Shown: positions 4,792 to 63,832, counted from the first letter of the stretch. The stretch is DNA of 64,000 nucleotides from Bacteroidota bacterium (GCA_021812985.1 JAKAMG010000004.1:72339-136338); one strand, 5' to 3'. Notes: a model not told the origin generated them from the sequence alone. Translations and numbers: made by a program.

Positions 4792-6420
4792 TTAAGCCTT
4801 GAAGGCTTCCGTTATCTCGCGCTTTTCAGAGGCGGAAAAAACCTTGAACGAGTTCACCGGCATTGCGGGGTCCGACTTGGTGCTTATGATGACCTTGTTC
4901 TTCCACATAAGTTTCATCAGATGACTCGGCCGCCCCTCATTCAGATAGTAGGCAATATACGGGTGGACGGTAAGCTTGAAGAATCTTCCACCGTGGCCCT
5001 CGGTTCTCAGCCTGCCGAACCAGCCGGTTATGTCCGTCAGGACGGTGGCCCGGCTCTGCACGATGCCGGTCCCGGAGCAGACGGGGCAGGTTTCGCTGAA
5101 CGACTGCATAATGCTCTGCCTGATGCGCTGCCGCGTGATCTGAACGAGGCCAAACTCCGTCATCGGGAGAACAGTGGACTTCGCCCTGTCTCTGCGGAAT
5201 TCCTTCTTCAGCTCTTCGTAAACTTTGCGTTTGTTCCTCTCGTCGTCGAGGTCGATGAAGTCGATCACTATGATGCCGCCAATGTCGCGGAGCCTGAGCT
5301 GCCTCACGACTTCGCGCGAAGCCTCCATGTTGGTACGAAGCGAGTTCTGTTCCTGTTCCTTGCTTGCCGCATAGCGTCCGCTGTTGACGTCTATGACCGT
5401 CATCGCCTCCGTCGGATCGATCACGAGATATCCGCCTGTCTTCAGGGGAACGCGCCTCCCGAGAGATTCCTGCATGTCCTTGGCGACACCAAAGACGTCG
5501 AAGATAAGCTGCTTTCCCTTGTAGAACTCAATCTTGTCGAGAAGATTCGGCGAAAACCATTTGACGTAAGTGGTAATCTCTTTGTAAAGTCTTCTTGAGT
5601 CCACGACGACCCGCTGGACGTCGTTGTTGAAGAGATCTCTGATCACGCTCGAGACGGTCGAGAGATCCTTGTAAAGGAGGATGGGGGGCTGTTCGGTCTT
5701 GAGGCTCTTCTCTATCTCGCGCCAGGTCTTAATCAGCTGAGCGAGGTCGTTCTTCAGAAGCTCCTCCTCTTTCCCCTCCGCCACGGTTCTGATGATAACT
5801 CCGAACCCTTCGGGGAGCATGCTCCTTATAATTCTCCGCAGCCTTTTCTTCTCCCGGAAATTGTAGAGCTTCTTCGATACGCCGATTCTTCCGTCAAACG
5901 GGAGAAGCACCAGGAACCTTCCGGGAAGCGATACCTTGCTTGTTACCCTTACCCCCTTCTTTCCGACAGGCTCCTTTGTGACCTGGACGATAATGCTCTG
6001 TCCGCGGTCCAGCTTGATTTCTCTCTGCGGCGGGCGGGGACCTCTTTGCTGAGAGGGCTGAGGACGCTGAGAAGGCTGATGCTGAGGAGGATGATCAGAT
6101 GGATGAGCGGACGTCGCATCATCATCATCATCGTCGTCGTCATCGTCGATTTCGGATTCGTCCTCGCCGATAAGCGAGGAGTACTCGTCTATATTAGGAT
6201 CGACGTCCGAGAAATGGAGGAAGGCGTCCTGTTTATGGCCGATGTCGATGAAAGCGGCGCGGATGCCGGGCATGACCCTGGCAACTTTGCCGAGGTAAAT
6301 GTCGCCGACCATGCGCTCTTTACCGGGAGTGTCGACAAAAATCTCAGCGAGTCTGCTGTCCTCAGTGATCGCGATACGAACCTGATCGGCAGTCTCATTG
6401 ATTACAATCTCCTTTTTCAT
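4792..6420 (-). CDS. rng: Ribonuclease G/E family endoribonuclease
   Basis: Cleaves single-stranded A/U-rich RNA in rRNA maturation and mRNA decay. I start at the ATG at 6420 (MKKEIVINETADQ, the usual RNase G opening, 542 residues). Frame-open sequence upstream to 6471 lacks such similarity. An S1 domain (VGDIYLGKVARVMPGI, AAFIDIGHKQDAFLH) is interrupted by an insert of ten consecutive Asp followed by a Pro/Gln/Ser-rich stretch, roughly residues 90-137. The catalytic core follows: MTVIDVNSG and IVIDFIDL carry the metal-binding Asp residues, and ETCPVCSGTG is the zinc-link motif. It ends soon after, without the long RNase E scaffold tail. The insert is low-complexity and acidic, and its role is unknown. 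The gene has an unusually long untranslated region upstream. Confidence 0.93.
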   Translation of the reverse strand: MKKEIVINETADQVRIAITEDSRLAEIFVDTPGKERMVGDIYLGKVARVMPGIRAAFIDIGHKQDAFLHFSDVDPNIDEYSSLIGEDESEIDDDDDDDDDDATSAHPSDHPPQHQPSQRPQPSQQRGPRPPQREIKLDRGQSIIVQVTKEPVGKKGVRVTSKVSLPGRFLVLLPFDGRIGVSKKLYNFREKKRLRRIIRSMLPEGFGVIIRTVAEGKEEELLKNDLAQLIKTWREIEKSLKTEQPPILLYKDLSTVSSVIRDLFNNDVQRVVVDSRRLYKEITTYVKWFSPNLLDKIEFYKGKQLIFDVFGVAKDMQESLGRRVPLKTGGYLVIDPTEAMTVIDVNSGRYAASKEQEQNSLRTNMEASREVVRQLRLRDIGGIIVIDFIDLDDERNKRKVYEELKKEFRRDRAKSTVLPMTEFGLVQITRQRIRQSIMQSFSETCPVCSGTGIVQSRATVLTDITGWFGRLRTEGHGGRFFKLTVHPYIAYYLNEGRPSHLMKLMWKNKVIISTKSDPAMPVNSFKVFSASEKREITEAFKA

Positions 6421-7000
6421 AATTACCTGCTCTGTTGAGTGTGAGCGGAGAGCTGCCAAGACTGTCGCCAATATATCCGGTCCGGGACCTCGCGATATGA
6501 TTCCCCAAAATCAATTCAGAGTGTGTACGAAGATGATCACACAAGACCGCGCTGCCGTAAGGCGCGATAGTCATCTGTATGTCACAATCCGGAGATCCTC
6601 CGGCAATTGTAATGCTCGGGACCGCGTTGAACGGCCCAATCGTGTCGGGAAGATGATTTAAATTCGTGCCGCTATGTCTCGCGACAATCATCCCCGAATC
6701 ACCGAGAACACTCTCAAAACACTGGAGACAGTCTGGAACGACTCCGCAAATAGTGTTAAAAATTGGATTGACGATTGACGGGATGAGGGTTTCCCACAAC
6801 GTCAGTATAGAAGAGATGACGGACGACAGGGCACGGGACAGCTTCACCGATGAAATGCTCGGCATTCCACTCTCTGAATCATAGCCTGCCATGCTGCGTC
6901 GTATTGACACCAAAATTCCGATGGTTAAACTTTCAGATTCCAAAAGACCGCGGGAAACGTTCAGCGACCTGACGTGCCGCCGCGGTGTGCAACAAGCCGA
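6421..7000. other. Long non-coding leader between SRP RNA and RNase G
   Basis: About 580 bp with no recognisable gene. A minus-strand reading frame is open across it (6395-7018, 207 codons), but it begins inside the SRP RNA, runs into RNase G, is Ser- and Cys-rich and resembles no family I know. The stretch must hold the RNase G promoter. Enterobacterial rne has a long leader used for autoregulation, so a similar leader is possible here. Confidence 0.4.
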
Positions 7001-7008
7001 AAAAAAAA
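7000..7008 (-). terminator. T-tract terminating the SRP RNA
   Basis: A nine-base T tract on the minus strand begins two bases after the GACCTC 3' arm of the SRP RNA. The terminal SRP stem plus this tract would act as an intrinsic terminator. Confidence 0.7.
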
Positions 7009-7010
7009 GC

Positions 7011-7110
7011 GAGGTCAAGCTTACTGTGTCACACGGTTAGTACGCTTACCGTTGCTTCCTTCCGGACCTGGCGGGGTTCGGCAACCTTCCGTTGCACAGG
7101 ACTTGACCTC
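7011..7110 (-). ncRNA. ffs: Signal recognition particle RNA, small bacterial type
   Basis: The minus strand carries the conserved domain IV core AGGTCCGGAAGGAAGCAAC, which forms the SRP RNA hairpin bound by Ffh. The ends GAGGTCAAG and CTTGACCTC pair perfectly, giving a closed rod of about 100 nt typical of the 4.5S class without the Alu domain. It guides co-translational delivery of membrane and secreted proteins. It lies 43 bp downstream of tRNA-Ala on the same strand and ends in a T tract. Confidence 0.95.
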
Positions 7111-7153
7111 AAAAACTCATTTCATGGCTCTTATTAATCAAATTTTTCTTGCG

Positions 7154-7226
7154 TGGAGCAGAGGGGAGTCGAACCCCCGACCTCCAGAGTGCGATTCTGG
7201 CGCTCTCCCAACTGAGCTACTGCCCC
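7154..7226 (-). tRNA. tRNA-Ala (anticodon CGC)
   Basis: The 73-nt minus-strand cloverleaf has acceptor GGGGCAG paired with CTGCTCC, including the G3:U70 wobble that identifies alanine tRNAs. The D arm is GCTCAGTTGGGAGAGC, the anticodon loop ATCGCAC gives CGC (reads GCG), and the T arm is GGGGGTTCGACTCCCC. The discriminator base is A and no CCA is encoded. Confidence 0.95.
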
Positions 7227-7427
7227 GCATCATTCCCCGATTTCCCTGCCAATGGCCTTAAGCCGGCAAAAAACCGAGGGTTTCAACAATTTCCAGATAC
7301 AATTTAACTACGTGGGGAAACGAGTGCAAATTTTAAACGTTTTAAATCGCGCCCCGCCTTTCATGCCTTGAATGGACGATACAAATCAGCTCTCGGCTTG
7401 CCGGGAGAAACGCCACTCCGCTCCCAC

Positions 7428-8423
7428 CTATTCTCCCAGCCTCTTGCCCACCGCGAGATAATTCTTCACGTAATCGGCAACGGCATCTTCGAGAGCGGTC
7501 CCGGGACTCTTGAAACCCGTGTTCCTTATCTTTGAAACATCTGCGCAGGTGTAGTACTGGTACTTGTCACGTATCGTCTCCGGCATGTCAACATACTCGA
7601 TACTGGCAGGCTTGCCCAGAGCAGCGAAGATGGCAGTTGCCAGCCTGTTCCATGTGTTGGCCGTACCACTACCGATGTTGAAGAGCCCTCCGGCCTTCCT
7701 GTTCTCAAGGAAGAAGAGGGTCATCTCAACCGCGTCCTTAACGTACACAAAATCCCTGACCTGCTCGCCGTCCTTGTAGTCTTCCCTGTGCGACCTGAAC
7801 AGCGTCATGCGACCCGTGTCCCGGATCTGCTCGAATGCCTTCAGCACCACCGAACGCATGTCGCCTTTGTGGTATTCATTTGGTCCGTAAACGTTGAAGT
7901 ACTTCAAACCGACCATCCTGTCAAGGAGACCGTGTCTCAGCGCCCACTGATCGAAGAGCTGTTTGGAATAGCCGTACATATTGAGCGGCCTCAGAGAGTC
8001 TATTTGCCTCTCGTCGTCGATGAAACCATTGCCACCGTCGCCGTATGTGGCGGCGCTCGATGCATAAATGAATCTCGCCCCTTCGTTAAGAGCAACCTCC
8101 GCGAGTTGTCTTGTATATTCGTAATTGTTCCTGATAAGGTAGGTGGCGTCCTTCTCCGTTGTTGCGGAGCAAGCCCCCATGTGGATGATCGCCTCGATGG
8201 GTTCCCTGTCCGACCTCATCCTCGCAGCAAGGCGCTTGTTTATCACCAGGTTTAGGAACTCGTCCTTTTCCATGTAGTCGCGATATCTCAGGGGCACGAG
8301 ATTCTTCCACTTTTCATCCGTCCCTAGGTTATCGACTATGAGTATTTCGTCCTTGCCTAGCTGGTTGAGTCTCCAGACGATCGCGCTCCCTATGAATCCC
8401 GCTCCACCGGTGACTATTATCAT
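7428..8423 (-). CDS. hldD: ADP-L-glycero-D-manno-heptose 6-epimerase
   Basis: Epimerises ADP-D-glycero-manno-heptose to the L form, the heptose donor for the LPS inner core. The 331-residue protein is an extended short-chain dehydrogenase: GGAGFIGSAIVWRLN binds NADP, IHMGACSATTEKD is an HldD signature, SSAATYGDGGNGF carries the catalytic Ser region, and MYGYSKQLFD supplies the YxxxK pair. KYFNVYGPNEYHKGDMRSV and DFVYVKD also match. Its presence supports an LPS-containing outer membrane. It lies 88 bp downstream of DprA on the same strand and may be the last gene of that run. Confidence 0.93.
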   Translation of the reverse strand: MIIVTGGAGFIGSAIVWRLNQLGKDEILIVDNLGTDEKWKNLVPLRYRDYMEKDEFLNLVINKRLAARMRSDREPIEAIIHMGACSATTEKDATYLIRNNYEYTRQLAEVALNEGARFIYASSAATYGDGGNGFIDDERQIDSLRPLNMYGYSKQLFDQWALRHGLLDRMVGLKYFNVYGPNEYHKGDMRSVVLKAFEQIRDTGRMTLFRSHREDYKDGEQVRDFVYVKDAVEMTLFFLENRKAGGLFNIGSGTANTWNRLATAIFAALGKPASIEYVDMPETIRDKYQYYTCADVSKIRNTGFKSPGTALEDAVADYVKNYLAVGKRLGE

Positions 8424-8511
8424 AAATCAAATTTCTCCGTTTCCGCTTGATGCATGATCATTACTCGTACGCGGCGCCTCGCACTCCCGTTCAAAAAAGA
8501 ATCCGGCGCCG

Positions 8512-9618
8512 TCATTGGCACTTCACAAAATACTTGCCGGGAAGCTGTTTGACAATACCTTTCAGTTCAAGTCCGAGGAGCTGTACCAGCAAGTCAGAAA
8601 TGGACAACCCGGATCTTTCGGCAAGGACATCTATGTGTTGGGCTTCCTCTCCCAGGAGGCCGAATATTTTCTCCTCGAAAATCGAAAGCTGGATCCTCGG
8701 CTGAGCGACGGCCGCGTCCTTCAGGAAGGGCTTCATCCTGTACTTCAGCTCCTCCAGGACGTCCATAATGTCACCAACCAGCTTCGCCCTTCCTTCCTTT
8801 ATGAGCTTGTTCGTTCCTCTGCTCTTCTTTTCGAATATCGGGCCCGGGACCGCAAACACCTCCCTGTTCTGATCAAGCGCGGTCCCTGCAGTTATCATCG
8901 CGCCGCCGTTCTCGTCTGTCTCGACGAGGATCGTGCCGAGTGACATGCCGCTGATAATTCTGTTTCGGCGGGGGAAATTAACGGCATCTGGTTTCGTGCC
9001 CATGTAATATTCGGAGACAATCGCACCTCCAAGGAGAATCTGCTCCGCGAGTTTCCTGTTCTCGCTCGGGTAAATCACGTCGACGCCGCTTCCCAGCACC
9101 GCGAGGGTTCTTCCGCCTGACCTTACCGTGGCCGCGTGGGCGATCGTGTCAACGCCACGCGCGAGGCCAGAGATCACGGCAATCCCCCTCTCCGCCAGTT
9201 CGGCGGCAAACTTCTCCGCCACCCGTTTCCCGTAAGCGGTCGGCGTTCTTGTCCCTACCAAAGCGATTGAATATTTGTCCTGCTGAGACATGCTTCCGCG
9301 CACAAAAAGCATGACGGGGGGATCGTATATCTTCTTCAGGTTTTCCGGAAAGTCTTTATCCCAGAAGGTGACCAGACGCGCCTCGCACTTGTTCAGCCGC
9401 GATAGCTGAAGCTGTATTTCCGCATCGAAGTCTTTCCTGCCGAGGATCCTTCTGGCAAGTCCGCGGTCAATGCCTTCGACGGAGACGAGATCCCTTTCAC
9501 TTGCAGCTGTGACCGCTTCGGGGTTGCCGAAATGAGTGATAAGGGATCGAAGCCTGGCCGCCCCGATCCCCTGGACCATGGAAAGGCCCAGCAGCGCACG
9601 AACATCCATCGAGCTCAA
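8512..9618 (-). CDS. dprA: DNA-processing protein DprA/Smf
   Basis: Binds incoming single-stranded DNA and loads RecA during natural transformation. The 368-residue protein has an N-terminal helix-hairpin-helix segment (VQGIGAARLRSL, SVEGIDRGLARRIL) and a Rossmann-like DprA core (VGTRTPTAYGKRVAEKF, ISGLARGVDTIAHAA, VLGSGVDVIYPSEN, NFPRRNRIISG, VETDENGGAMITAG). It ends in a winged-helix domain in the last 65 residues. I keep the TTG start at 9618 because AGGAGG lies 6 bases upstream. An in-frame ATG three codons later has poor spacing. DprA alone does not prove competence, as the family is widespread. It follows the kinase genes on the same strand. Confidence 0.92.
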   Translation of the reverse strand: MSSMDVRALLGLSMVQGIGAARLRSLITHFGNPEAVTAASERDLVSVEGIDRGLARRILGRKDFDAEIQLQLSRLNKCEARLVTFWDKDFPENLKKIYDPPVMLFVRGSMSQQDKYSIALVGTRTPTAYGKRVAEKFAAELAERGIAVISGLARGVDTIAHAATVRSGGRTLAVLGSGVDVIYPSENRKLAEQILLGGAIVSEYYMGTKPDAVNFPRRNRIISGMSLGTILVETDENGGAMITAGTALDQNREVFAVPGPIFEKKSRGTNKLIKEGRAKLVGDIMDVLEELKYRMKPFLKDAAVAQPRIQLSIFEEKIFGLLGEEAQHIDVLAERSGLSISDLLVQLLGLELKGIVKQLPGKYFVKCQ

Positions 9619-9678
9619 TGCATGCCTCCTCCTTCCGAAGCATTGACTTACGGCAGCAGGGGAACTGCGAGTTCTGCT

Positions 9679-10806
9679 TCAATCCTTGTCGCCGGCAGGG
9701 ATCACCACTGTGAACTTCGTCCCCTTTCCAAGCACAGACTCCACAAAGACTCTCCCGCCGTGGGCCTCAACCACCCGTTTCACAATGGTGAGGCCAAGGC
9801 CAGTCCCTTTCTGTGACGATCCCTTCGCATTCTTGGCCTGACGGTACCGATCGAATATGAGTGGCACTTCGTCGGCGGTTATGCCCACCCCTGTATCTTC
9901 GACATCGAGGGCTATGAACTGACCTTTCAACAGGGGTTCCTTATCGCCGAAAGACTTACTGTATGTCCTGATAGTCACCCGTCCCTCCTTTGGAGTAAAT
10001 TTCAAGGCATTGCTCAGGAGGTTGGTGACAACCTGGTCAATCTTTCCGTCATCACACTCGCATATCGGAAGGTCCTTGTCGGTCTCAACATCTAGCGTTA
10101 TTCCTTTTTCCCGGTAAAGGACCCTGAGGCGTGCCACGGCCGCGGCCACTATAAGATTGACGTCGTTTGGCTGCTTGTTCAACTGGAGCTTTCCTGCTTC
10201 CAGCTTCGCGACGTCGAGAATGTCGTTTATCAGGCCGAGCATCTTCTGCGATGTCTCAAGCGCGGAGCTAAGGAACTCCTTCATCTCTACAGGATTGTTG
10301 TCGAACTCACCGGAGGCGCCGAGCTCGAGGACGCCGATGATGACCGAGAGCGGACTCCGCAGGTCGTGCACGAGCATCGACTGGAAATCGGATTTGAGCT
10401 GTTCCATCTCGCGCTCCACCTTAACGATGCGGAGAATCGACCTTACCCTCGCTATCAGCTCATCCTGGTCTATCGGCTTGGTCAGGTATTCGTCGGCGCC
10501 GAGAGAGAAGCCTTCCTCTATACTCTTTGCATCCTTCGAATTCGCAGTGAGGATGATTACCGGGATATCCTTAGTGAGTTCATTTTCCTTTAGATGCTTC
10601 AGCGTTTCAAATCCGCTCATCTCCGGCATTGCGACGTCGAGAATTATAAGATCTGCCGGTTCTGAAGCGCTTTTGGCGAGGCACTCCCTCCCGCTTGCCG
10701 CCTTAATCACGTCGAAACCCTGGCGCTTTAGGAGCCTGTCAAGCAGAACAAGGTTATCAGGAGCATCGTCAACAGCCAGGATTTTCGGTCGCTCGTCCAT
10801 CTGCAA
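9679..10806 (-). CDS. Receiver-histidine kinase hybrid (REC-HisKA-HATPase)
   Basis: A soluble 375-residue kinase with its receiver at the N-terminus. The receiver spans about residues 7-125 with phospho-acceptor Asp57 (LIILDVAMPEMSG) and the TKPID switch Lys. A short coiled linker leads to the HisKA box at His147 (LVHDLRSPLS). The ATPase domain has VVTNLLSNALKFTP (N box), VEDTGVGI (G1) and KGTGLGLTIVKRVVEAHGG (G2). No membrane segment or sensor domain is visible, so its kinase is probably controlled by phosphorylation of its own receiver. The gene lies 26 bp after the giant hybrid kinase, so the two products likely belong to one relay. Confidence 0.9.
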   Translation of the reverse strand: MQMDERPKILAVDDAPDNLVLLDRLLKRQGFDVIKAASGRECLAKSASEPADLIILDVAMPEMSGFETLKHLKENELTKDIPVIILTANSKDAKSIEEGFSLGADEYLTKPIDQDELIARVRSILRIVKVEREMEQLKSDFQSMLVHDLRSPLSVIIGVLELGASGEFDNNPVEMKEFLSSALETSQKMLGLINDILDVAKLEAGKLQLNKQPNDVNLIVAAAVARLRVLYREKGITLDVETDKDLPICECDDGKIDQVVTNLLSNALKFTPKEGRVTIRTYSKSFGDKEPLLKGQFIALDVEDTGVGITADEVPLIFDRYRQAKNAKGSSQKGTGLGLTIVKRVVEAHGGRVFVESVLGKGTKFTVVIPAGDKD

Positions 10807-10832
10807 TACCTATCGGATTTGGGAGTCCTGTT

Positions 10833-13800
10833 TCAGTTCCAGGACCGATTTTCGTTTCTGTGTATAAATTTGTTGACCTCGCGAAGGATTATCTCCCTGG
10901 TCAGCCCTTCCTTCTTCACGATGTCCTTTATCCTGGAATTGAGAACTGAGCGGTCCTCGTCGGTAATCTCCTTGGCCGTCAGCACAACCACGGGTACTTC
11001 TCTGAGCCTCTCGTCTTCGTACATCTTCTCCACGACCCCGAACCCATCCATACCGGGCATCAAAAGGTCGAGGAAGACTAGCGAAGGGGTCCTGGACCGG
11101 AGAAATTCCACGGCCTCTATACCGTTCCGCGCAGTCGATATGGTAAACTTGCTCTTCTCGAGAAGATTACCCAGGAAGTTGGTGAAGTCTTCGTTGTCGT
11201 CAACGACGAGTATGTCGCCGCCGTCCGTACCAGTGTATTTTCTGACGACCGATATGATTTTCCCCGGCTCAACTGGTTTCACAATGAAGGATTCGGCGCC
11301 AAGGGAGACAGCAAGCGCTTTGTTGTCGACAACGGAATGTATGATAACGGGAATTTCCTTCAACTCGGGATCTGCCTTCAGCTCCTGAAGTAGCTGCCAC
11401 CCGTCTTTGTTTGGCATCATGATGTCCAGCGTGACGAGGACGGGCTTCTGTTTCCTGACGGTCTCGAGCGCAACGCGGGAATCAGAAACTCCCATGAACT
11501 CAAAGCCCTCAGACTCAAGGTGTTTCTTTAGCAGGATGAGCACTTCGGGATCGTCGTCGATGCAGACGATGAGATTATTAGTCTCGACCGTCGCGTCAGA
11601 CGTCGGCGGCACCACAACCGTTTCTGCTCTCACCTGCTTCTCGGGCACGTGGTAGAAGACGGGTAGAGTGAGTGTAAACGTGGACCCCTCCCCGACCTTG
11701 CTTTTCACAGTCAGATCGCCGCCAAGCATCCTCGCGAGCTTCCGCGAGATTGCAAGACCGAGACCAGTACCACCGTGCTTGCGCGTGTTCGAGCCATCGA
11801 CCTGTCTGAATTCCTCGAATATGACTTCAAGATAATTTTCGGGCACCCCGGAGCCGGTATCTTCTACCGCAAGCGAAACAAAATTTTTCTCGAGCATCCT
11901 GACGATGATTTTGATGTGCCCCGCTTCCGTGAACTTAGCGGCGTTGCTGAGTAGGTTCAGCACGATCTGTTTGACCCTGGCGGCGTCCGAGAAAATCGGC
12001 GGTATGTCGCTCCCGATTTCGCTCAAGAGCTTCACAGGTCTGTCGCCAAGGAGCGGCGCGACGGTCGCCAACGCATCCGCCGTGACCGTGTCAATCCTGA
12101 ACTCCTCGGGTGAAATGGAAATCTTCCCTGCCTCGATTTTCGAGAGGTCGAGAATGTCGTTTATAAGCGCCAGGAGGTTCTTCGCATTCCTGAGCACTAT
12201 CTCGAGCCCTTCCTTCTGATCTCCGGTAGGCGGCTGTTCCTCATCCGTGAGGACCAGGTTCGTGAAGCCGATGATCGAGTTTAGCGGGGTTCTGAGTTCG
12301 TGACTCATGTTGGCAAGGAACTGACTCTTCAGCCTGCTGGCCTCTTCAAGCTGCTGGTTCGCCTGAACGAGCTGTGCGTTCGCCTCCTCAACCCATACCT
12401 TGGAGATACGCAGTTGCTCGTTGGAATCCTCCAGTTCCTTCGACTTCTCGAGAATATCCGAATATAAGAGAGCGTTCTCGACGGACCCGCCGAGCACGCG
12501 GGAAATCATCATGAAGAACTCAGTGTCGGAGAGGTTTATCTCCATCTTATCCTTCGAAGCTGCGAGGAGAAGGCCGTGGGCCTTGCGGCTGCCAAGAATC
12601 GGGACCGCAATTGCAGACTGCATCATTTCAGATCGAAGCATTCCGAAGAGCCGCGTCGGCTGGGCATGCTCTGATATTTCCGGAAGCGCCTGCGGAACGC
12701 CGATGTCCATCGCGTCAGAAAGGATATAGCCTTCTATAGGAACCGACTGAACATCGGGAGACGTGGTGAAAGCGGAGCTGAAGCCGAGCGAGGCCGCCAG
12801 ATCAAGATTGCGAGTCGTTTCGTTGAGCAGAAAGACTGCAGCTGCGGACACTTCCTCGAATTCCAGCAGCCTTGTCAGACTCTTGTTGAGGATCTCGAAC
12901 ACGTCCAGGGCATCCTTCACCGCGAGAGCGGTCCGGTTGATAACCGAGAGTCGCCTGTTCTGCTTCTTTATGGCAAGCTCGTTCTTCTTCTGGTCAGTTA
13001 TGTCACTGAATATGACGACGGCTCCGTTGACATCACGGACAGATCCGATGAGAGGAGAAGCACTGACAGATAGTATTCTCTCCTTGCCGTCACGTCTTAT
13101 CATCAGCTCGCTGTTGCGGATGTCCCTTCCTTCAAGCGCCGCAAGCCTGACGGGGTTCTCCGCCTCCGAAAGGTTGCCTCCGTCAAGCGTGAACATACCG
13201 AGCTTGTCTGCAAAATCGGAGAATCCCACCTCCGGTATTCTCTCCAGCCCGAAGGTCTTCTTTCCTCCCTCGTTCATGAGGACAATTCTGCCGATCCTGT
13301 CGACCAGGGCGATCCCTTCGGCGGCGCTCGCGAAAATCTTCTCGAGCTGGTCCGCCTGCTCGGCAACTTTGCCACCGAGTCTCAACTTTTGTATACCTAC
13401 GGCGAGTTCGCTCGCCGCTGCTTCCGAAAGGTCAGCCTCATATTTTATGTTACCCGGCGGCGCGACGGAGACATACTGGAACACTCCGACGACTTCGCCG
13501 GATGTTATGAGCGGAAGAGTGACGAGGCCATTTGAGTCACGGAAGATCGGTTCGTCCTCGAAACCGGCAAACTCAGTTTCGGACAGGGATTTGCTGAAGA
13601 CCATCTTTCCGAATTTCGCCGATCTGCTCGCGTTTGTCCCGTCTTCAGAACCGACGCCTTGAACCACAGGGACATCAGAATTCCTTCCGATGGAGTTTCT
13701 CTGGGCCAGCAGCTGCAGGTTCGTGGTCTTCTCGTCATATGAGTAGAGGGCTACAAGAGGAGCGCCGATTATTTCCATAAGAAGGGAGGACGCGGACTCG

Positions 13801-55210: not shown

Positions 55211-56833
55211 TCACTCCATCGCTACGACCTTGTCCCCCGCGGCCTTTTTGCGGTGCGTCCTCAGAAAGAAAATCGGAACGGCACACAGAAGCATGATGGC
55301 AAACGCAAAAAGAAACGCGTCGTCGGTAGCCTGAACAATCGCCTGCTGAGCCACGCTCGACAGGACCAATGCCCTGGCCCTCTCCAGCTCTGTGGACATG
55401 GGGGCGCTGATGGCCTGAGTTACGAAGTATCTCAAACCATTGATCACATGCTGGAAGGTCGTCGAATACTGGTTCATCGCCTCTCCGTCGACTGCAGTAT
55501 GAAAAAGGGTTCGCTGAGTCAGCAGCGTACCTATCACGGCGACGCCGAAGCTTCCACCAACCTGCCTTATCACGTTAAACAGGCCAGACGCCTGTGCCAT
55601 CTTTTCTTTCTTTATTTCCGAAAGTGCGACGGTGCTCAGCGGGGTGAAGAGAATTCCCATTCCAATCCCCCTCAGATAAACGGGGAGCATGACCTCTGAG
55701 TGCATGGAGTACAGCGACAGAAATCCGTTCAGGTACCAGCTTGAGGCGAGGAAGACGATCCCTACCAGCGAAATTATCTTGGGGTTAATTCTGTCTGCCA
55801 TGTAACCCGAAATCGGCGCGGCAACGCCCTGTATGAGCCCCATCGGCAAATACACCAACCCCGCCTGATAGGCCGTGTAGTTGAGCGAATTCTGAAGGTA
55901 TAGCGGGAGGAGGAATGTGCTCCCGAAGACCGAGAAACCGAATATGAACAGCACGATGTTCGCCATTCCATAATTGAAGTTCTTCAGAAGATTCAGCTCG
56001 AGTATCGGATGCTCTACCCTGAACTCGGTGAAGAGAAAGACTGTCAGCGCGACAGCGGCAATCGCGAAGCAAGACAGGATAAACGTCGAGGTCCAACCAC
56101 CCGTGTTCCATGAAGCATTCCCGTCAGCCAGAGCGAGGAGAAGCGAGACAAGAAACACGCTCATCGACGCGAAGCCGAGGAAATCGAAAGAGCGAGTCTT
56201 CGCCGCCTTGTATTCTCTCTGAATCGCCCAGCTCGCGAATATCGCAAAGAGCCCCACCGGCAAGTTCACGTCGAATATCGAATGCCAACTGAAGTTATCC
56301 ACGAGATAGCCGCCGATGAGCGGTCCGAACGAGACCGAGCTGGCCGCAGCTATTGACCAAAATCCCAGTGCCGTCCCCCGCCTTTCCAACGGAAACTCCC
56401 TGAGGACTATCGCCATACCGACGGGGGTAATTATACCGCCGCCAAGTCCCTGCATTATTCTGAAGAATATCAGGGCGTTTTCGTTCCACGCCAATCCGCA
56501 AAGGAACGAGCCGCTGGTGAAAAGGAAAAGGGCGAGCATGTAAATCTTTTTGTAGCCGAAATGATCGGCGATCCAGCCGGAGCTGGGAAGCATGACGGCA
56601 AACGCCAGAAGATAAGCGTTTATCACCCACTCTGCCTTGTCAACGGTTATCCCGAAGGCGGCCATGATCTTAGGCAGCGACACGTTGACTATAGTCGAGT
56701 CGAGCACCGCCATGAACGTGCCTATCATTATATTGGCCAGCACCCACCACTTGTACGATGAGTGATCGTGACGAATGGCCCCGATCCCGGGTCCCGAGAA
56801 CGAGCCGCTCCGATTTGATGTGTCCTTACTCAT
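55211..56833 (-). CDS. DHA2 family multidrug transporter (fourth EmrB copy)
   Basis: From the ATG at 56833 (MSKDTSNRSG) the protein has 540 residues and about 14 membrane helices. LDSTIVNVSLPKIM is motif D1 and SSGWIADHFGYKK is motif A. MGLIQGVAAPISGYMADR and FVYLPM-like loops match the EmrB/QacA class. It exports drugs by proton antiport, docking on EmrA and TolC. The C-terminus ends VVAME, matching the short acidic tail (AMD/AME) of the other three copies. It starts 11 bases after the third copy's stop. Confidence 0.9.
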   Translation of the reverse strand: MSKDTSNRSGSFSGPGIGAIRHDHSSYKWWVLANIMIGTFMAVLDSTIVNVSLPKIMAAFGITVDKAEWVINAYLLAFAVMLPSSGWIADHFGYKKIYMLALFLFTSGSFLCGLAWNENALIFFRIMQGLGGGIITPVGMAIVLREFPLERRGTALGFWSIAAASSVSFGPLIGGYLVDNFSWHSIFDVNLPVGLFAIFASWAIQREYKAAKTRSFDFLGFASMSVFLVSLLLALADGNASWNTGGWTSTFILSCFAIAAVALTVFLFTEFRVEHPILELNLLKNFNYGMANIVLFIFGFSVFGSTFLLPLYLQNSLNYTAYQAGLVYLPMGLIQGVAAPISGYMADRINPKIISLVGIVFLASSWYLNGFLSLYSMHSEVMLPVYLRGIGMGILFTPLSTVALSEIKKEKMAQASGLFNVIRQVGGSFGVAVIGTLLTQRTLFHTAVDGEAMNQYSTTFQHVINGLRYFVTQAISAPMSTELERARALVLSSVAQQAIVQATDDAFLFAFAIMLLCAVPIFFLRTHRKKAAGDKVVAME

Positions 56834-56844
56834 CTTCAATCTCA

Positions 56845-58497
56845 CTATTCCATAGCCATCAGGTGATCGCCATGTCCCTTCTTTTTCTTGCTCCGTAGGA
56901 ATAAGACGGGTACGATACATAGAAACGTTATCGTCGCGGCGATTAAGAAGTCATCGTCTACCGCCGAGACGAACGCCTGCTGGCTGACATTGTAAAGGAG
57001 AAGCGCATTTGCCCTGGCCGCGGACAAGGCCGAGTTGCCTCCGACCGCCTGCTGCGCAAACTGCTTCAGCCCGATAAGTGCGCTCTGAACGGCCGGCGAA
57101 TACTTGTTGACCGCCTGTCCGTATATAGTCTCATGGAATGTCGTGCGATCTGTCAGAAGGGTACCCATTATGGCAACGCCGAAACTTCCGCCGACCTGTC
57201 TCAAAACGTTATAAAGCCCGGAGGCGCGCGCCATTTTCTCCTTCGGCACTTTTGAAAGCGAGAGCGAGCTAAGCGGGGTGAAGATGAACCCCATACCGAG
57301 GCCACGAAGGTATATCGATATCATCACGGAGTGCGTCTCGGAAAAAAGCGAAAGGAAATGATTGCTGAAGAGACTCAGTGCGAGTACCACGACTCCGTAG
57401 AGGGCAAGGTATTTCGCGTTAAGCCTGTCCGATAAGTATCCCGCAAGAGGTCCCATTGTTCCCTGGAGAAATCCGAGGGGCAGGAAGAGCGATCCCGCCT
57501 GGAAGGCCGTGTAACCCAAACCGTTCTGCAGATACAGCGGGAGAAGGAATGTGCTTCCGAACATTCCCATTCCGAAAATGAAGAGCACCAGGTTCGCCAT
57601 CGCGAAGTTGAAATTCCTCATCAGGCTTAGGTCGACCAGCGGTTCGGAGGTATTCAGCTCCACGGCGATGAAGGCGACGAACCCTAGAAGGGAAAGTGCG
57701 AAACATGTTAGTATAAACGGCGATGTCCATCCTCCCGTGTTCCAGTCGGCGTCGCCATCAGACAGGGCAAGTAGAAGGGTCGTCAGAAAGAGCGCCATCG
57801 ACAGAAATCCGGCGAGATCGAAGCTGCGCGATTTCTGCGACTGGTACTCGCGCTGTATTACGAGTGTCGCGAAGATTGCGACGATCCCGATCGGCACATT
57901 TATATCGTAAATGGAATGCCAGACATAATTGTCGATGAGGTATCCGCCGAGCGTCGGACCGAGCGAAACGGAGGCCGCCGATGCAACCGACCAGAAACCG
58001 ATGGCTGTGCCTCTTTTTTCCGGAGGAAACTCCCTCATGACAATAGCCATGCCGACGGGCATCAAAAGTCCGCCGCCGATTCCCTGAATTATCCGAAATG
58101 CAATCAGAGCGGAGATGCTCCATGACAATGAGCAAAGGAGCGAACCGCCCGTAAAGAGTGTGAGCGCGGTAGCATAAGTCTTCTTATAACCAAACCTGTC
58201 CGCAATCCAGCCCGAAGTCGGAAGCATCACGGCAAGGGCAAGCAGATAAGCAGTCGCCACCCATTTTGCCGTATCCACAGTCACTCCGAAAGTTGCCATG
58301 ATGGTCGGCATCGAAACGTCGACGATGCTGGAGTCAAGCACGACCATGAAAGTCCCGAACATGACATTGAAGAGCACCCACCATTTATACGACGGATGCT
58401 CGTGGTGAGGAATCCCTAACGCGGAAGAAAGCGATCTCCCGCCACCATTTGAACCATGATGTGAGCTGTGATCCGAATTACTATCTTCGTTCTGCAT
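56845..58497 (-). CDS. DHA2 family multidrug transporter (third EmrB copy)
   Basis: The 550-residue protein has about 14 membrane helices. LDSSIVDVSMPTIMATFG is motif D1 (Asp in place of Asn after IV) and TSGWIADRFGYKK is motif A. VMREFPPEKRGTAIGFWSVA and a TolC-linked DHA2 architecture follow. Its N-terminal tail (NGGGRSLSSALGIPHHEHP) and the tail of the second copy (IGVPHHEHPSYKWWVL) are very similar, so copies two and three look like the most recent duplication. It ends LMAME. Confidence 0.9.
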   Translation of the reverse strand: MQNEDSNSDHSSHHGSNGGGRSLSSALGIPHHEHPSYKWWVLFNVMFGTFMVVLDSSIVDVSMPTIMATFGVTVDTAKWVATAYLLALAVMLPTSGWIADRFGYKKTYATALTLFTGGSLLCSLSWSISALIAFRIIQGIGGGLLMPVGMAIVMREFPPEKRGTAIGFWSVASAASVSLGPTLGGYLIDNYVWHSIYDINVPIGIVAIFATLVIQREYQSQKSRSFDLAGFLSMALFLTTLLLALSDGDADWNTGGWTSPFILTCFALSLLGFVAFIAVELNTSEPLVDLSLMRNFNFAMANLVLFIFGMGMFGSTFLLPLYLQNGLGYTAFQAGSLFLPLGFLQGTMGPLAGYLSDRLNAKYLALYGVVVLALSLFSNHFLSLFSETHSVMISIYLRGLGMGFIFTPLSSLSLSKVPKEKMARASGLYNVLRQVGGSFGVAIMGTLLTDRTTFHETIYGQAVNKYSPAVQSALIGLKQFAQQAVGGNSALSAARANALLLYNVSQQAFVSAVDDDFLIAATITFLCIVPVLFLRSKKKKGHGDHLMAME

Positions 58498-58553
58498 TTC
58501 TAGTTTGTTCTTTAGAAGGGACCCATTTGTCCATCAACCTAGCATTTCAAACT

Positions 58554-60185
58554 TCAATCCATAGCCACGGCGGTTATCTTCTCACCCGCACGCTTCTTGT
58601 ACCGCAGGAATACAATCGGGATCATACACGCGGCAGTTATCAGAGCTGCGACCAGGAAATCGTCGTCGACGGCAGAGACAAAGGCCTGCTGGCTCAGGTT
58701 GTAAACGAGGAGTGCGTTCGCGCGCATAGAAGCAAGCGAGGCACTGCTTCCGAGCACGTTCTGCGCGAACCCTCGAAGCCCGAAGAGGACGTTCTGAGTC
58801 ACGGGTGACGCCGTGTTGACGGCCTGGCCATACATCGTCGTATGGAAAATAGTCCGGTCAGTGAGGAGCGTTCCCATGATGGCGACGCCGAAACTCCCTC
58901 CGATCTGGCGGATGACGTTAAACAGTCCGGAGGCCTGCGCGAGACGCTCCCTTGGAATCTGGGCGAGCGACAGCGTGTTGAGCGGCGTGAAAATCAAGGC
59001 CATGCCAAGCCCGCGAAGATAAAGGGAGACCATAATCTCCGATCTCATGGAAAAGAGAGAGAGGTATCGGTTTACAAACAGACTCAACGCTAGGATCGCG
59101 ATGCCCACTGCGGAAACCACCTTCGGATTAGCTTTATCAGAGAGTATGCCGGAGATCGGCCCCATGACGGCCATTATCAGACCGAGCGGGAGAAAAAGCG
59201 AGCCGGCCTGAAATGCGGTAAATCCAAGCCCGTTCTGCAAATAGAGCGGGAGTAGAAAGGTGCTCCCGAACATCCCCATGCCGAATATGAAAAGGATAAG
59301 ATTGGACATGCCGAAATTGAAATTCTTAAGGAGCCGCAGATCGATGAGAGGATCGCGTATGTTGAACTCGACAGTAAGAAACACGACCAAACCGATCAGC
59401 GATAGGGCGAGGCATATAAGGATAAAGGGTGAAGTCCATCCTCCGGTGTTCCACGATGCGTTCCCGTCAGAAAGCGCGACGAGAAGAGGAACGAGGAACA
59501 AGACCACCGAAAGGAAGCCGGTGATGTCGAAGGAACGGGTAGATGCCGTCTTGTACTCGCGCTGGATGACCATTGTCGCGAAGACGCCAAGGATTCCGAC
59601 TGGCACGTTTATGTCAAATATGGCGTGCCAGGCAAAGTTGTCGATGAGATAACCTCCAAGGGTCGGTCCCAGCGAGACAGATGCCGCGGACGCTATTGCC
59701 CAAAAGCCCAGCGCGAGACCGCGCTTCTCGGGTGGAAACTCCCGAACGACAATCGCCATTCCGACCGGCATCAGAAGGCCGCCACCTGCCCCCTGCAGTA
59801 CGCGGAATGCAATGAGCGCGGTCATGTTCCACGATATCGAGCAGAGAAGCGAACCAGCCGTGAAAAGGGCGAGCCCGAGCGTGTACGTCTTCCTGAAACC
59901 GAAGTGGTCTGCTATCCAACCCGACGTCGGGAGGAATATCGCGAACGCCAGGAGGTAAGCGGTGGCAATCCACTTGACCGTATCGATTCCCACCCCGAAA
60001 GTAGCCATGACCTTCGCCAGCGAGACGTCGACGATCGTTGAGTCGAGTACCACCATGAAGGTTCCCATCATCACGTTTGCGAGTACCCACCACTTGTACG
60101 ACGGATGCTCATGATGAGGGACCCCTATGCTTCCGGACAGGCCGGCGCCGTTCGATCTATTTTCAGAATTTCCATTGCTCTTCAT
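58554..60185 (-). CDS. DHA2 family multidrug transporter (second EmrB copy)
   Basis: The 543-residue protein has about 14 membrane helices. LDSTIVDVSLAKVMATFG is motif D1 and TSGWIADHFGFRK is motif A. VVREFPPEKRGLALGFWAIA is the inner loop. Compared with copy three it shares the PHHEHPSYKWWVL lead and most helices. The C-terminus ends TAVAMD. It lies 56 bp upstream of copy three and 73 bp downstream of copy one. Confidence 0.9.
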   Translation of the reverse strand: MKSNGNSENRSNGAGLSGSIGVPHHEHPSYKWWVLANVMMGTFMVVLDSTIVDVSLAKVMATFGVGIDTVKWIATAYLLAFAIFLPTSGWIADHFGFRKTYTLGLALFTAGSLLCSISWNMTALIAFRVLQGAGGGLLMPVGMAIVVREFPPEKRGLALGFWAIASAASVSLGPTLGGYLIDNFAWHAIFDINVPVGILGVFATMVIQREYKTASTRSFDITGFLSVVLFLVPLLVALSDGNASWNTGGWTSPFILICLALSLIGLVVFLTVEFNIRDPLIDLRLLKNFNFGMSNLILFIFGMGMFGSTFLLPLYLQNGLGFTAFQAGSLFLPLGLIMAVMGPISGILSDKANPKVVSAVGIAILALSLFVNRYLSLFSMRSEIMVSLYLRGLGMALIFTPLNTLSLAQIPRERLAQASGLFNVIRQIGGSFGVAIMGTLLTDRTIFHTTMYGQAVNTASPVTQNVLFGLRGFAQNVLGSSASLASMRANALLVYNLSQQAFVSAVDDDFLVAALITAACMIPIVFLRYKKRAGEKITAVAMD

Positions 60186-60258
60186 TGAATGTCCTTCTAT
60201 ATAAAAACCTCACTTACACAAGAACGTCCGGTCCCGCCGGACTTCACAAAAGCCGGTC

Positions 60259-61869
60259 TCAATCCATCGCGACAGCTTTGACTCCCGCCTGTGGCCTCTT
60301 CCTGCGCAAAAAGAAGATGGGAATCAGACAGAGTATTGTAATCGCGCCGGCGACCAGGAAGTCGTCGTTTACCGCTGAAACGAACGCCTGCTTCATAACG
60401 TGTCCGATGATGAGACCCTTTCCACGCATGGATGACACATTGCCCGAACCTCCCACGACGTGCTGGGAAAAATGCGTGAGCTTGTCCATCGTGTTCCGGA
60501 AGGCGGAGGAGTGCTGGTCGACGGCAATCCCGTATGAGGCGGTATGAAATATCACCCGCCTGGTCAGAAGCGTTCCAAAGAGGGCCACGCCGAAGCTTCC
60601 ACCAACCTGCCTTATCACGTTGAACAGCCCCGAGGCCTGTGCCATCTTGTGCTTGGGAACGTTCGCGAGGGCCAGCGTGCTCAGCGGCGTGAACATAAGC
60701 CCCATAGCAAACCCCCTGAGATAAAGGGGGAGCATGATCTGTGAGTGCATAGAGTACAACGACAGGAAATAATTCAGATACATGCTGATCCCGAGGAGGA
60801 TTATTCCGACCGCCGCAGGTATGCGGGCGTCCACTCTGTCAGACATGAAACCCGCCACGGGGGCCATGATTCCCTGCAGAATCCCCACGGGGAGAAAAAC
60901 GAGCCCAGCCTGGAATGGCGTGTAGTTGAGGGAGTTCTGAAGGTAGAGCGGCATCAGAAAAGTGCTCCCGAACATGCCGAGCCCGAATATAAACAGAACA
61001 ATGTTCGTGAGCCCGAAATTGAAATCCTCCAGGAGCTTGAGCTCTATCAAAGGATGCTTCACGTTGAACTCGGCAACGAGAAAGACGACGAGTCCAAGAA
61101 CGGACAGGCCGAAACAAACGAGAATGAACGGAGAAGTCCAGCCGCCTGTGTTCCATGATGCGTTGCCATCAGTCAGCGCCAGGAGAAGAAAGGTGAGAAA
61201 GACCGAGACCGACACGAATCCTATCAGGTCAAAACCCCGCGTGTGCTCAGTCTTGTATTCGCGTTGGACAACCATGGTAGCGAAAATGCCCAAAATGCCG
61301 ACGGGGACGTTGACGTAGAATATCGTGTGCCAGGAGAAATTGTCGATCAGGTAGCCGCCTATCAGCGGGCCGAACGAAACCGAGGCCGCCGCGGCTATGG
61401 ACCAGAACCCGAGCGCGATCCCCCTCCTTTCGGGAGGAAACTCCCTTGTCACTATCGCCATTCCGACTGGCATGAGGAATCCCGCGCCGGCGCCCTGGAT
61501 GACGCGAAAGGCGACAAGAGCGTTCTCGTTCCATGCGGTGCCGCAAAGGAAAGAACCGACAGTGAAAAGGAAGAGGGCTAACGCGTATGTGCGCTTGTAT
61601 CCGAAGTGATCTGCGACCCACCCGGATGTGGGGAGCATGACCGCGAGAATCAACAGATAAGCCGTCATGACCCATTCGATCTTGTCGATAGTCACGCCGA
61701 ACGTCGCCATTATCTTGGGAAGTCCGACGTTGACTATAGTCGAGTCGAGAACGGCCATGAACGTTCCAATCATCACGTTGCCCAACACAAGCCACTTGTA
61801 AAACTGATGGCTGTGATGCAGCACGGACGATGGATTGCGCGCGGAACCCGCGTCAAGCGCCAGCGACAT
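60259..61869 (-). CDS. emrB: DHA2 family multidrug transporter (first EmrB copy)
   Basis: The 536-residue protein has about 14 membrane helices. LDSTIVNVGLPKIMATFG is motif D1, TSGWVADHFGYKR is motif A, and VTREFPPERRGIALGFWSIA is the inner loop. It starts 10 bases after the EmrA stop, so it is the copy that most directly matches the usual emrAB pair. The C-terminus ends KAVAMD. It shares the DSTIVNV motif with copy four, while copies two and three have IVDV. Confidence 0.92.
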   Translation of the reverse strand: MSLALDAGSARNPSSVLHHSHQFYKWLVLGNVMIGTFMAVLDSTIVNVGLPKIMATFGVTIDKIEWVMTAYLLILAVMLPTSGWVADHFGYKRTYALALFLFTVGSFLCGTAWNENALVAFRVIQGAGAGFLMPVGMAIVTREFPPERRGIALGFWSIAAAASVSFGPLIGGYLIDNFSWHTIFYVNVPVGILGIFATMVVQREYKTEHTRGFDLIGFVSVSVFLTFLLLALTDGNASWNTGGWTSPFILVCFGLSVLGLVVFLVAEFNVKHPLIELKLLEDFNFGLTNIVLFIFGLGMFGSTFLMPLYLQNSLNYTPFQAGLVFLPVGILQGIMAPVAGFMSDRVDARIPAAVGIILLGISMYLNYFLSLYSMHSQIMLPLYLRGFAMGLMFTPLSTLALANVPKHKMAQASGLFNVIRQVGGSFGVALFGTLLTRRVIFHTASYGIAVDQHSSAFRNTMDKLTHFSQHVVGGSGNVSSMRGKGLIIGHVMKQAFVSAVNDDFLVAGAITILCLIPIFFLRRKRPQAGVKAVAMD

Positions 61870-61879
61870 TTCCGGATTC

Positions 61880-62890
61880 CTACTTCACCTTCACAGACAC
61901 TTCGACCGACATTCCAGGTCTCAGCACGGGCTTATGACCTAGCATCGCCGAAGGATCGTCTATGGAAATCTTCACCGGAACTCGCTGTGTAACCTTGGTG
62001 AAGTTTCCCGAGGCGTTGTCAGGCGGTATCAACGAAAATTCGGAGGCTGTGTAGCTTCCTATCTCGAAGACCTTACCTGTGAACTTCACTCCCGGGTAGG
62101 TATCGACGTTGATTTCCACCGGGTCTCCAACATGTATATGACCGAGCTTGGTCTCCTCGAGGTTTGCGGTGACCCAAACGTTCTTCAGATCATAGATGGT
62201 AAAGATCGGCTGCCCCGGCTGTACCACATCGCCCGTGAGGACCCACCTCTTTGCCACCACGCCGTCTATCGGGGAATTGACTACTGTGTTCAGGAGCTGC
62301 GCTTCGACGACGCCGAGCTGGGCCCTTGCGGTTGGAATTCTCGACTGGGCGATGGCGAGCTCTGCGCGCGCCGCTTCGAGGGCCTGCTGCGCGTGCTGGT
62401 ACTGTTCCTTGGTTACAATTCCGCCCTTGTATTGAACCTCCGCGCGGTTGAAGTCCTCCTGTGCGCGGTTGACCTGCACCTGTGCCAGCGGCACGCTCTG
62501 CTCCGCGAGCTGGAGCCCCGCCTTTGCCGAGGCTTCCTGTGCGCGCAGATCAGTGTCGTCAAGCCTGACGAGCACTTGTCCTGCCTTCACGGTATCTCCC
62601 TCGTCCGTGCCGAGGTAAACGATCCTTCCGAGCATCTTCGTGCTTACGGCGACGTTGTTCGCATCGACGAATGCGTCGTCTGTCGAGACGAAGTCCTGCA
62701 TGTTCATGTACCAGTAATAGCCTGCGATCGCGAGTCCCGTCAGCACCAGGAGTATCGGGATGATGACCCGCTTCTTACGGAACAATGGAACATCATCGAT
62801 GTCCTCGTCTCCATCTCCGTTCTGCGAAGGACCTTGATTTCTCAGCATGTTCTGATCCAGGTCTTTATCGTGTTTCTCTTTCGTTTCCAT
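61880..62890 (-). CDS. emrA: HlyD/EmrA family periplasmic adaptor
   Basis: The adaptor joins the inner-membrane transporter to TolC. I take the ATG at 62890 (AAGGA about 7 bases upstream) over the TTG one codon earlier, giving 336 residues. An acidic N-terminal tail precedes one membrane helix (about 42-62). The lipoyl half-motifs flank a helical hairpin: LGTDEGDTVKAGQVLVRLDD at about 93-112 and SPIDGVVAKRWVLTGDVV at about 220. The hairpin is LQLAEQSVPLAQVQVNRAQ. A beta-barrel domain closes the protein. A single adaptor serves four transporters here. Confidence 0.93.
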   Translation of the reverse strand: METKEKHDKDLDQNMLRNQGPSQNGDGDEDIDDVPLFRKKRVIIPILLVLTGLAIAGYYWYMNMQDFVSTDDAFVDANNVAVSTKMLGRIVYLGTDEGDTVKAGQVLVRLDDTDLRAQEASAKAGLQLAEQSVPLAQVQVNRAQEDFNRAEVQYKGGIVTKEQYQHAQQALEAARAELAIAQSRIPTARAQLGVVEAQLLNTVVNSPIDGVVAKRWVLTGDVVQPGQPIFTIYDLKNVWVTANLEETKLGHIHVGDPVEINVDTYPGVKFTGKVFEIGSYTASEFSLIPPDNASGNFTKVTQRVPVKISIDDPSAMLGHKPVLRPGMSVEVSVKVK

Positions 62891-62905
62891 CAATCGTTTC
62901 CTTAT

Positions 62906-63517
62906 TTATTTCCTTTTAATTATTCCGTTCAAAATCACTTCGGCGATCTGTCTTGCGGATTCCTCGAGGACATTGTAAGTTTCGTCGTCCAGCCTGTTCT
63001 CTCGTTTGAGGAGGAGCCAGGCGCGTGGACCGTAAAACATCTGCATGATAATCTCAGCTGATTGCTGCGGATCCTTCACTTCGAAATCTCCGGAAGCGCC
63101 GCCGAGCTCAAGAATCTTCCTGAGGAGTGCCACCTCCTGCTGTTGAAAATCCTTGAAGAGTTCGAGGTGTGAGGCCCGCGATTCGGCAGACTGCTGTATC
63201 TGCAAAGCCCTTAGGTTGGCCAGGTTCCTGAAGTACTCGACGCGCTTCGCCGCGTACTGGCGAAGCATGTCGCAGGCGGGAAGCTTCTCTTCAATCATAG
63301 ACCTGATATCTTCAAGGAACTGGTCTTTCTCCTGCCTGATTACTTCGTTGAAGAGTCCTTCCTTCGTCGGGAAGTAGTAGTAAAGCGAGGCCTTCCCCAT
63401 CCCGACATCGGCGGCAATCTCGTCCATCGTAACCTTCGAGAAGCCGTAGTACGCAAACCTTTTACGGGCCGCGTCGAGTATGAGCGCCTGCTTTTCAGAC
63501 GATAGTTGCTCTGCCAT
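62906..63517 (-). CDS. TetR/AcrR family transcriptional regulator
   Basis: The 203-residue repressor has an N-terminal helix-turn-helix (about residues 26-55, TMDEIAADVGMGKASLYYYF) and a variable ligand-binding C-domain (about 70-203). It starts at an ATG at 63517 and is 15 bases ahead of emrA, so it probably controls its own operon and is relieved by a toxic ligand. A repeated TTCGAC sequence lies 65-107 bp upstream of the start and is a candidate operator. Confidence 0.92.
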   Translation of the reverse strand: MAEQLSSEKQALILDAARKRFAYYGFSKVTMDEIAADVGMGKASLYYYFPTKEGLFNEVIRQEKDQFLEDIRSMIEEKLPACDMLRQYAAKRVEYFRNLANLRALQIQQSAESRASHLELFKDFQQQEVALLRKILELGGASGDFEVKDPQQSAEIIMQMFYGPRAWLLLKRENRLDDETYNVLEESARQIAEVILNGIIKRK

Positions 63518-63581: not shown

Positions 63582-63624
63582 TTCGACCCTATAACGATTC
63601 GACTGTTTCAGTAATTGCGTCGAA
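63582..63624. promoter_or_regulatory. Candidate operator of the efflux regulator
   Basis: TTCGAC occurs at 63582-63587 and 63598-63603, and its complement GTCGAA at 63619-63624. The last two form an inverted repeat of 6-base arms with a 15-base spacer. Position upstream of the TetR gene fits autoregulation. It is unproven. Confidence 0.35.
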
Positions 63625-63832
63625 ATATAGAACACGAATCCCCGCTAATCAAGTTCCCTGAATGCCAAAATTGTTAGTAGTTCCCCGAAGGTCTGCCTCC
63701 GTTTATCTGCATACCCTTATTTTGGAACGTATTTAGGGTATTCTTGATTTCCTCTTCCGAGCGGAGGAGGCATGGAGATGAACTTAGTACCGCAAGGTGG
63801 ATGTCGACTGTTCTACCCTTATTACGCCCAAG
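63625..63832. other. Non-coding upstream region of the efflux operon
   Basis: About 200 bp between the candidate operator and a possible gene start at the window end. No clear promoter, repeat or RNA gene was identified. Confidence 0.35.

Follow-up and report, generated by a model that had tools for sequence, protein, structure and literature searches.

In Escherichia coli, the EmrAB–TolC efflux pump (PDB 8ZAL and 8ZAR) assembles as TolC3–EmrA6–EmrB1, a ratio of 3:6:1 in which EmrB is a monomer (PMC13139468). Helix a2 of the EmrB bundle is trapped by the EmrA ring L302/L303, and the pump is inactive without EmrA (PMC13139468). Its genes comprise one emrB beside emrA and the regulator gene mprA, with tolC not adjacent. 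Among RND pumps, one adaptor, AcrA, serves the diverged transporters AcrB and AcrD, which have different substrate ranges; acrD is located away from acrAB, whereas the variants described below all stand in one operon. AcrD is 64% identical to AcrB (PMC8446912), near the divergence among the transporters of that operon. MdtABC, also an RND system, likewise has two unlike tandem inner-membrane transporters in one pump operon, but it is active as an MdtB2C heterotrimer (PMC12802153), whereas EmrB is an MFS protein and monomeric in its pump. Here we describe an EmrAB–TolC-type MFS tripartite efflux operon in which the transporter gene alone appears to have multiplied.

The locus lies in a 64,000-nucleotide stretch of DNA from a Bacteroidota bacterium (hereafter the window). 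On its minus strand (63517–53800), genes for a TetR regulator, EmrA, four EmrB-type DHA2 transporters (B1 to B4) and TolC follow one another in that 5′-to-3′ order (Table 1), separated, from TetR to TolC, by 12, 10, 73, 56, 11 and 70 bp. These coordinates confirm the one-directional layout with gaps of 10–73 bp that a previous sequence-only reading had described, and the same array is found in sister species. The probable EmrA start is the ATG at 62890. B4 starts at 56833; the mechanical open-reading-frame start at 56920 would overlap B3. TolC is part of the operon but outside the range originally noted, which begins at the B4 stop. Elsewhere in the window, an SRP RNA (RF00169; 7010–7226, minus strand) adjoins a tRNA gene.

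Table 1. Features of the multi-emrB operon, in window coordinates.
Feature	Position	Strand	Basis or remark
Probable promoter TTGATT-17-TATATT	63624..63652	-	Consensus match; in sister species, too, the -35/-10 pair stands directly before the operator
Probable TetR operator TTCGACGCAATTACTGAAACAGTCGAA, imperfect palindrome TTCGAC-N15-GTCGAA	63598..63624	-	One exact match in genome, at array
TetR-family regulator, 203 aa	62906..63517	-	PF00440, 61.6 bits
EmrA periplasmic adaptor, 337 aa	61880..62893	-	Only one of its kind in genome
EmrB copy B1, 536 aa	60259..61869	-	EmrB profile; predicted model matches 8ZAL chain J
EmrB copy B2, 543 aa	58554..60185	-	EmrB profile and tree; type also the sole copy in single-EmrB relatives
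EmrB copy B3, 550 aa	56845..58497	-	EmrB profile and tree; sister of B2
EmrB copy B4, 540 aa	55211..56833	-	EmrB profile and tree; sister of B5 type in other species
TolC-family outer-membrane channel, 446 aa	53800..55140	-	PF02321, 189 bits, two repeats

Compared with EmrAB–TolC of E. coli, the operon has the same three component families and differs in its one to five emrB genes across the genus, its TetR and its internal tolC. All four EmrBs score 400–431 bits against NCBIfam TIGR00711 (efflux_EmrB), 170–200 bits above the curated cut-off of 230.2 bits, and they are the only full-strength EmrBs in the genome. The coupling residues D29, R109 and Q112 (E. coli EmrB numbering, as below) do not vary in any copy from any species examined, nor do the gate residues P121, N403 and R406; F379 is nearly invariant, being Trp in one lone copy. 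By fold, a predicted B1 model (mean pLDDT 85.7, built from 69 sequences) matches most closely the EmrB chain in the E. coli tripartite pump (8ZAL chain J; TM 0.94 by target, rmsd 2.0) and fits QacA less well (rmsd 4.9); this model replaced a poor earlier one built from four sequences (mean pLDDT 49.8). In the model, made for B1 only, a long TM11 helix (406–449), a short helix (455–471) and a second long helix (476–513) take up the arrangement of the periplasmic bundle. By alignment, every copy, lone ones included, has this extended bundle between TM11 and TM12. The adaptor matches EmrA in the PDB (E 2e-49), with the conserved beta-barrel loop aligned, and it scores 228.6 bits against the TIGR00998 subfamily model, below that model's own cut-off of 390.8. 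Its hydrophobic ring 1 is kept (E. coli L302 is L and L303 is I), and both I313 and V316 of ring 2 are Thr. The usual one-transporter layout is replaced by four EmrBs here; because that layout is not a mechanistic requirement, the multi-emrB array marks a variant of the EmrAB–TolC kind and is no new kind of pump.

We mapped the locus in 12 sister species of the same genus, a group of uncultured environmental bacteria (13 genomes in total, which appear to be metagenome assemblies). The full series B1-B2-B3-B4-B5 is found in G002 and in G012, where it spans two contigs whose ends overlap by exactly 112 bp. G011 has B1-B2-B3-B5, the window genome B1-B2-B3-B4, G006 and G008 B1-B2-B3, G004 B1-B2-B3 plus a B5 remnant, G005 and G007 B1-B2, and G010 B4-B5; G001 has B2-B3 and a second contig with a broken B1 plus B2-B3. 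G003 has a single B2-type EmrB, and G009 has no array EmrB. At least two EmrBs thus occur in 11 of the 13 genomes and at least three in 7, with gene order constant and only content changing. Because TolC is followed throughout the genus by one and the same glycosyltransferase gene, and further flanks match wherever the contig extends that far, the array represents one fixed chromosomal site with changing content. Chance, an assembly artefact and recent amplification were ruled out by the divergence of the paralogues (about 59–68% identity, synonymous sites near saturation) and by the same order in independent assemblies. Nor are the copies scattered or disabled, outcomes that would have told against the sequence-only reading: they are syntenic and intact, and two of the few extra EmrBs elsewhere look like remnants of a second operon. 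The array is real: across the genus, a variable set of differentiated EmrBs stands behind a single adaptor and a single channel.

A promoter-like pair and a 27-bp imperfect palindrome precede TetR (63652–63598). The exact palindrome has a single occurrence in the window genome, at the array, and eight sisters likewise have it there; the reversed control gave 0 matches. With up to three mismatches it is present in all 13 genus genomes; in G003, G004 and G010 the array copy has one mismatch, so that a copy with 0–1 mismatch stands upstream of the array in 12 of the 13 genomes and, in the thirteenth (G009), before a lone EmrB. The array's TetR would bind this operator and repress the operon, and a single TetR-controlled promoter would then drive the one EmrA, the one TolC and all four diverged EmrBs. 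No internal promoter comparable to it was established within the array. A terminator- or attenuator-like hairpin between B1 and B2 (60242–60226) was dropped, being absent as a conserved feature in the sister species.

Such arrays are rare outside the genus. The sample there comprised about 156 genomes with a strong EmrB: about 44 from the class, 50 from the rest of the phylum, and 22 and 40 from the phyla of L102 (Chitinimonas) and L048 (labelled Acidobacteria), respectively. Counting profile matches over a strict E-value in draft assemblies, an adjacent EmrB pair occurs in two (G046 and G066) and three or more in none. Of 80 EmrA loci outside the genus from a named collection, most have one EmrB. 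Named relatives that the EmrA profile picked out are metagenome assemblies of Bacteroidetes and Candidatus Kryptoniota. Operons L044–L097 (Ignavibacteriota, Bacteroidales and other relatives) share the TetR–EmrA–EmrB–TolC order, usually with TetR, and encode EmrBs mostly 53–69% identical to B1, but have one EmrB each where EmrB is complete, except for a pair in L093. Two tandem EmrBs beside one EmrA are found in L093/L028 (Kapaibacterium) and in L118, another Bacteroidota. The L028 EmrB is only about 30% identical to the window copies, and the L028 copies branch apart from the genus EmrBs; the outside pairs arose independently of the genus array, a judgement that for L118 draws on distance and taxonomy only. 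The L118 locus (5710–11406, in G066) consists of the EmrB pair, EmrA and an upstream TolC, with no other TIGR00711 match in that genome at the same strict threshold. Within the limited set of papers covered, a literature search found no matching tandem emrB operon.

The history of the copies was examined in two EmrB trees, a larger, quick one of 79 sequences and a careful one of 57. In both, B1, B3 and B4 are each recovered as a single clade spanning species, and the B1, B2/B3 and B4/B5 lineages all have 100/100 support; single-EmrB relatives carry B2-type proteins. The B1 plus B4/5 grouping is weak (82/54), and the trees do not settle the order of the three deep lineages. Support for a single clade of all genus EmrBs is likewise weak (careful tree, 58/49; larger tree, 91 SH-aLRT), and one EmrB lineage could have arrived from outside the genus. 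A tree with late duplication of B2/B3 was not rejected (p-AU 0.38), and their split could be older or younger than the single-copy species. In agreement with the earlier proposal of more than one duplication, the three lineages plus the B2/B3 and B4/B5 splits indicate that the array grew by at least four events. Given the divergence and near-saturation noted above, and orthologues that are mostly 84–95% identical between species, the array is old. The EmrB orthologues are under strong purifying selection, with dN/dS of about 0.02–0.05 for B1 to B4 where dS is measurable.

The motifs from which the sequence-only reading had argued were read correctly (PHHEHPSYKWWVL in copies 2 and 3, IVDV as against IVNV, and AMD/AME ends), but they carry less than was drawn from them. 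IVNV, taken to unite copies 1 and 4, is the commonest state in single-copy outgroups (8/13) and looks ancestral. The HHEHPSYKWWVL lead, taken to unite copies 2 and 3, also occurs in single-copy relatives, although the tree does make B2 and B3 sisters. We reject the AMD/AME tail as the selected dock that had been proposed: single-EmrB relatives have it, certain B1 and B4 orthologues lack it (ending instead in LQQR, PAD, AIH or AMH), and the structure model predicts it to be disordered; it is ancestral and has been lost in some orthologues. In the solved E. coli pump, EmrB docks through its periplasmic helix bundle (PMC13139468), which all copies here keep.

We next consider what the copies might do. 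That all perform the same job, the array merely lifting transporter output, would fit with their being intact, in one operon and alike in catalytic residues, and with their free loss between species. We nevertheless consider dosage or redundancy doubtful, because the copies differ from one another far more than orthologues do and their near-saturated synonymous sites point to old copies that have not been homogenized. Moreover, 84 alignment columns are fixed inside each orthologue group yet vary from group to group, and 66 of these columns fall in core membrane segments. With segment limits that we set from the E. coli sequence, and with weak statistics, copy-specific residues are somewhat commoner in the membrane core than in all other regions (p 0.04), and in the helix bundle alone they are not significantly rarer than in the core (p 0.32). 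Consistent with differentiation, a comparison of substrate-pocket residues, suggested by the sequence-only reading, revealed differences at three pocket or gate positions: position 26 is A in B1 and B4 and V in B2 and B3, and position 120 is T only in B4, both fixed within groups, and position 62 is L in B1, F in B2 and B4 and mostly L in B3.

EmrBs away from any EmrA are kept intact in G002, G007, G009 and G012. In G009 (L021:8227–10215) and G012 (L027:2767–4765), a lone B5-type EmrB has an array-type promoter and operator and a decayed TetR (tblastn E 3e-10 and 3e-7, respectively), with no EmrA. G004 carries a second TetR–EmrA–EmrB–TolC operon (L015:3–4643) with EmrA frameshifted over two frames, B5 intact and TolC broken. 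These three loci appear to be stages in the decay of a second operon, of the B5 type. In the careful tree, the array B5 of G011 groups with the second-operon B5s and not with the array B5s of G002 and G012, which suggests that transporters moved between the two operons. Separately, two lone EmrB subtypes occupy one shared slot beside a homoserine-dehydrogenase-like gene (L012:5587–10706, L021:4721–9840 and L026:254–5461), in opposite orientation relative to their neighbours.

Because EmrBs persist without a neighbouring EmrA, in one case in a genome where no member of this EmrA family was found, some may export by themselves or through a different adaptor. Some DHA2 transporters, QacA among them, function without any adaptor, and only one copy might use EmrA–TolC while the rest ride in the operon as independent inner-membrane exporters. 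We regard this as improbable for the array, since all copies, lone ones too, keep the helix bundle between TM11 and TM12, and the E. coli pump depends on EmrA. Hetero-assembly, with unlike EmrBs together in one EmrA–TolC pump of a stoichiometry other than 3:6:1, recalls MdtB and MdtC behind one adaptor (PMC12802153) but is highly improbable, and unlikely as an obligate form, given the monomeric EmrB of the 3:6:1 E. coli pump (PMC13139468) and the want of any MdtABC-like fixed pair in arrays that range from B2 alone through B1-B2, B2-B3 and B4-B5 up to five copies, single-EmrB species included.

We therefore favour, with a probability of roughly 0.68, the reading that the differentiated EmrBs act as alternative modules and compete for one common EmrA6–TolC3 duct. 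An EmrA-profile search, which counts members of that family only, found one EmrA in the window genome and in most sisters; G001 and G004 have a second, broken in G004, and G009 has none and retains one lone EmrB. One sister genome has one EmrA as against up to seven EmrBs. With one EmrA and an E. coli-type 3:6:1 assembly, if the same holds here, the four EmrBs would have to compete for a single type of duct. The periplasmic bundle of each would plug into the EmrA hexamer, with one EmrB per assembled pump and different substrates for different copies, so that the set would widen the exported substrate range. Between copies, the bundle is one of the less conserved regions (48% identity), and equal docking of all is not guaranteed. 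Gene anatomy and evolution (one EmrA in the genome, one operator, intact copies and kept synteny) make this the best reading, in favour of the modular pump that the sequence-only reading had offered beside hetero-assembly.

The usual description of an MFS tripartite pump is of one adaptor with one transporter; here up to five long-separate transporters stand behind one adaptor, which suggests a pump with a swappable engine and a constant duct. This raises the testable question of what lets one EmrA duct take more than one EmrB, and which residues of EmrB determine the substrate. In a paralogue set seemingly sharing one partner, docking residues, which are kept, should be separable from substrate residues, which have diverged. 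The gains, losses and decaying second operons within this one genus show how such pumps grow and shrink.
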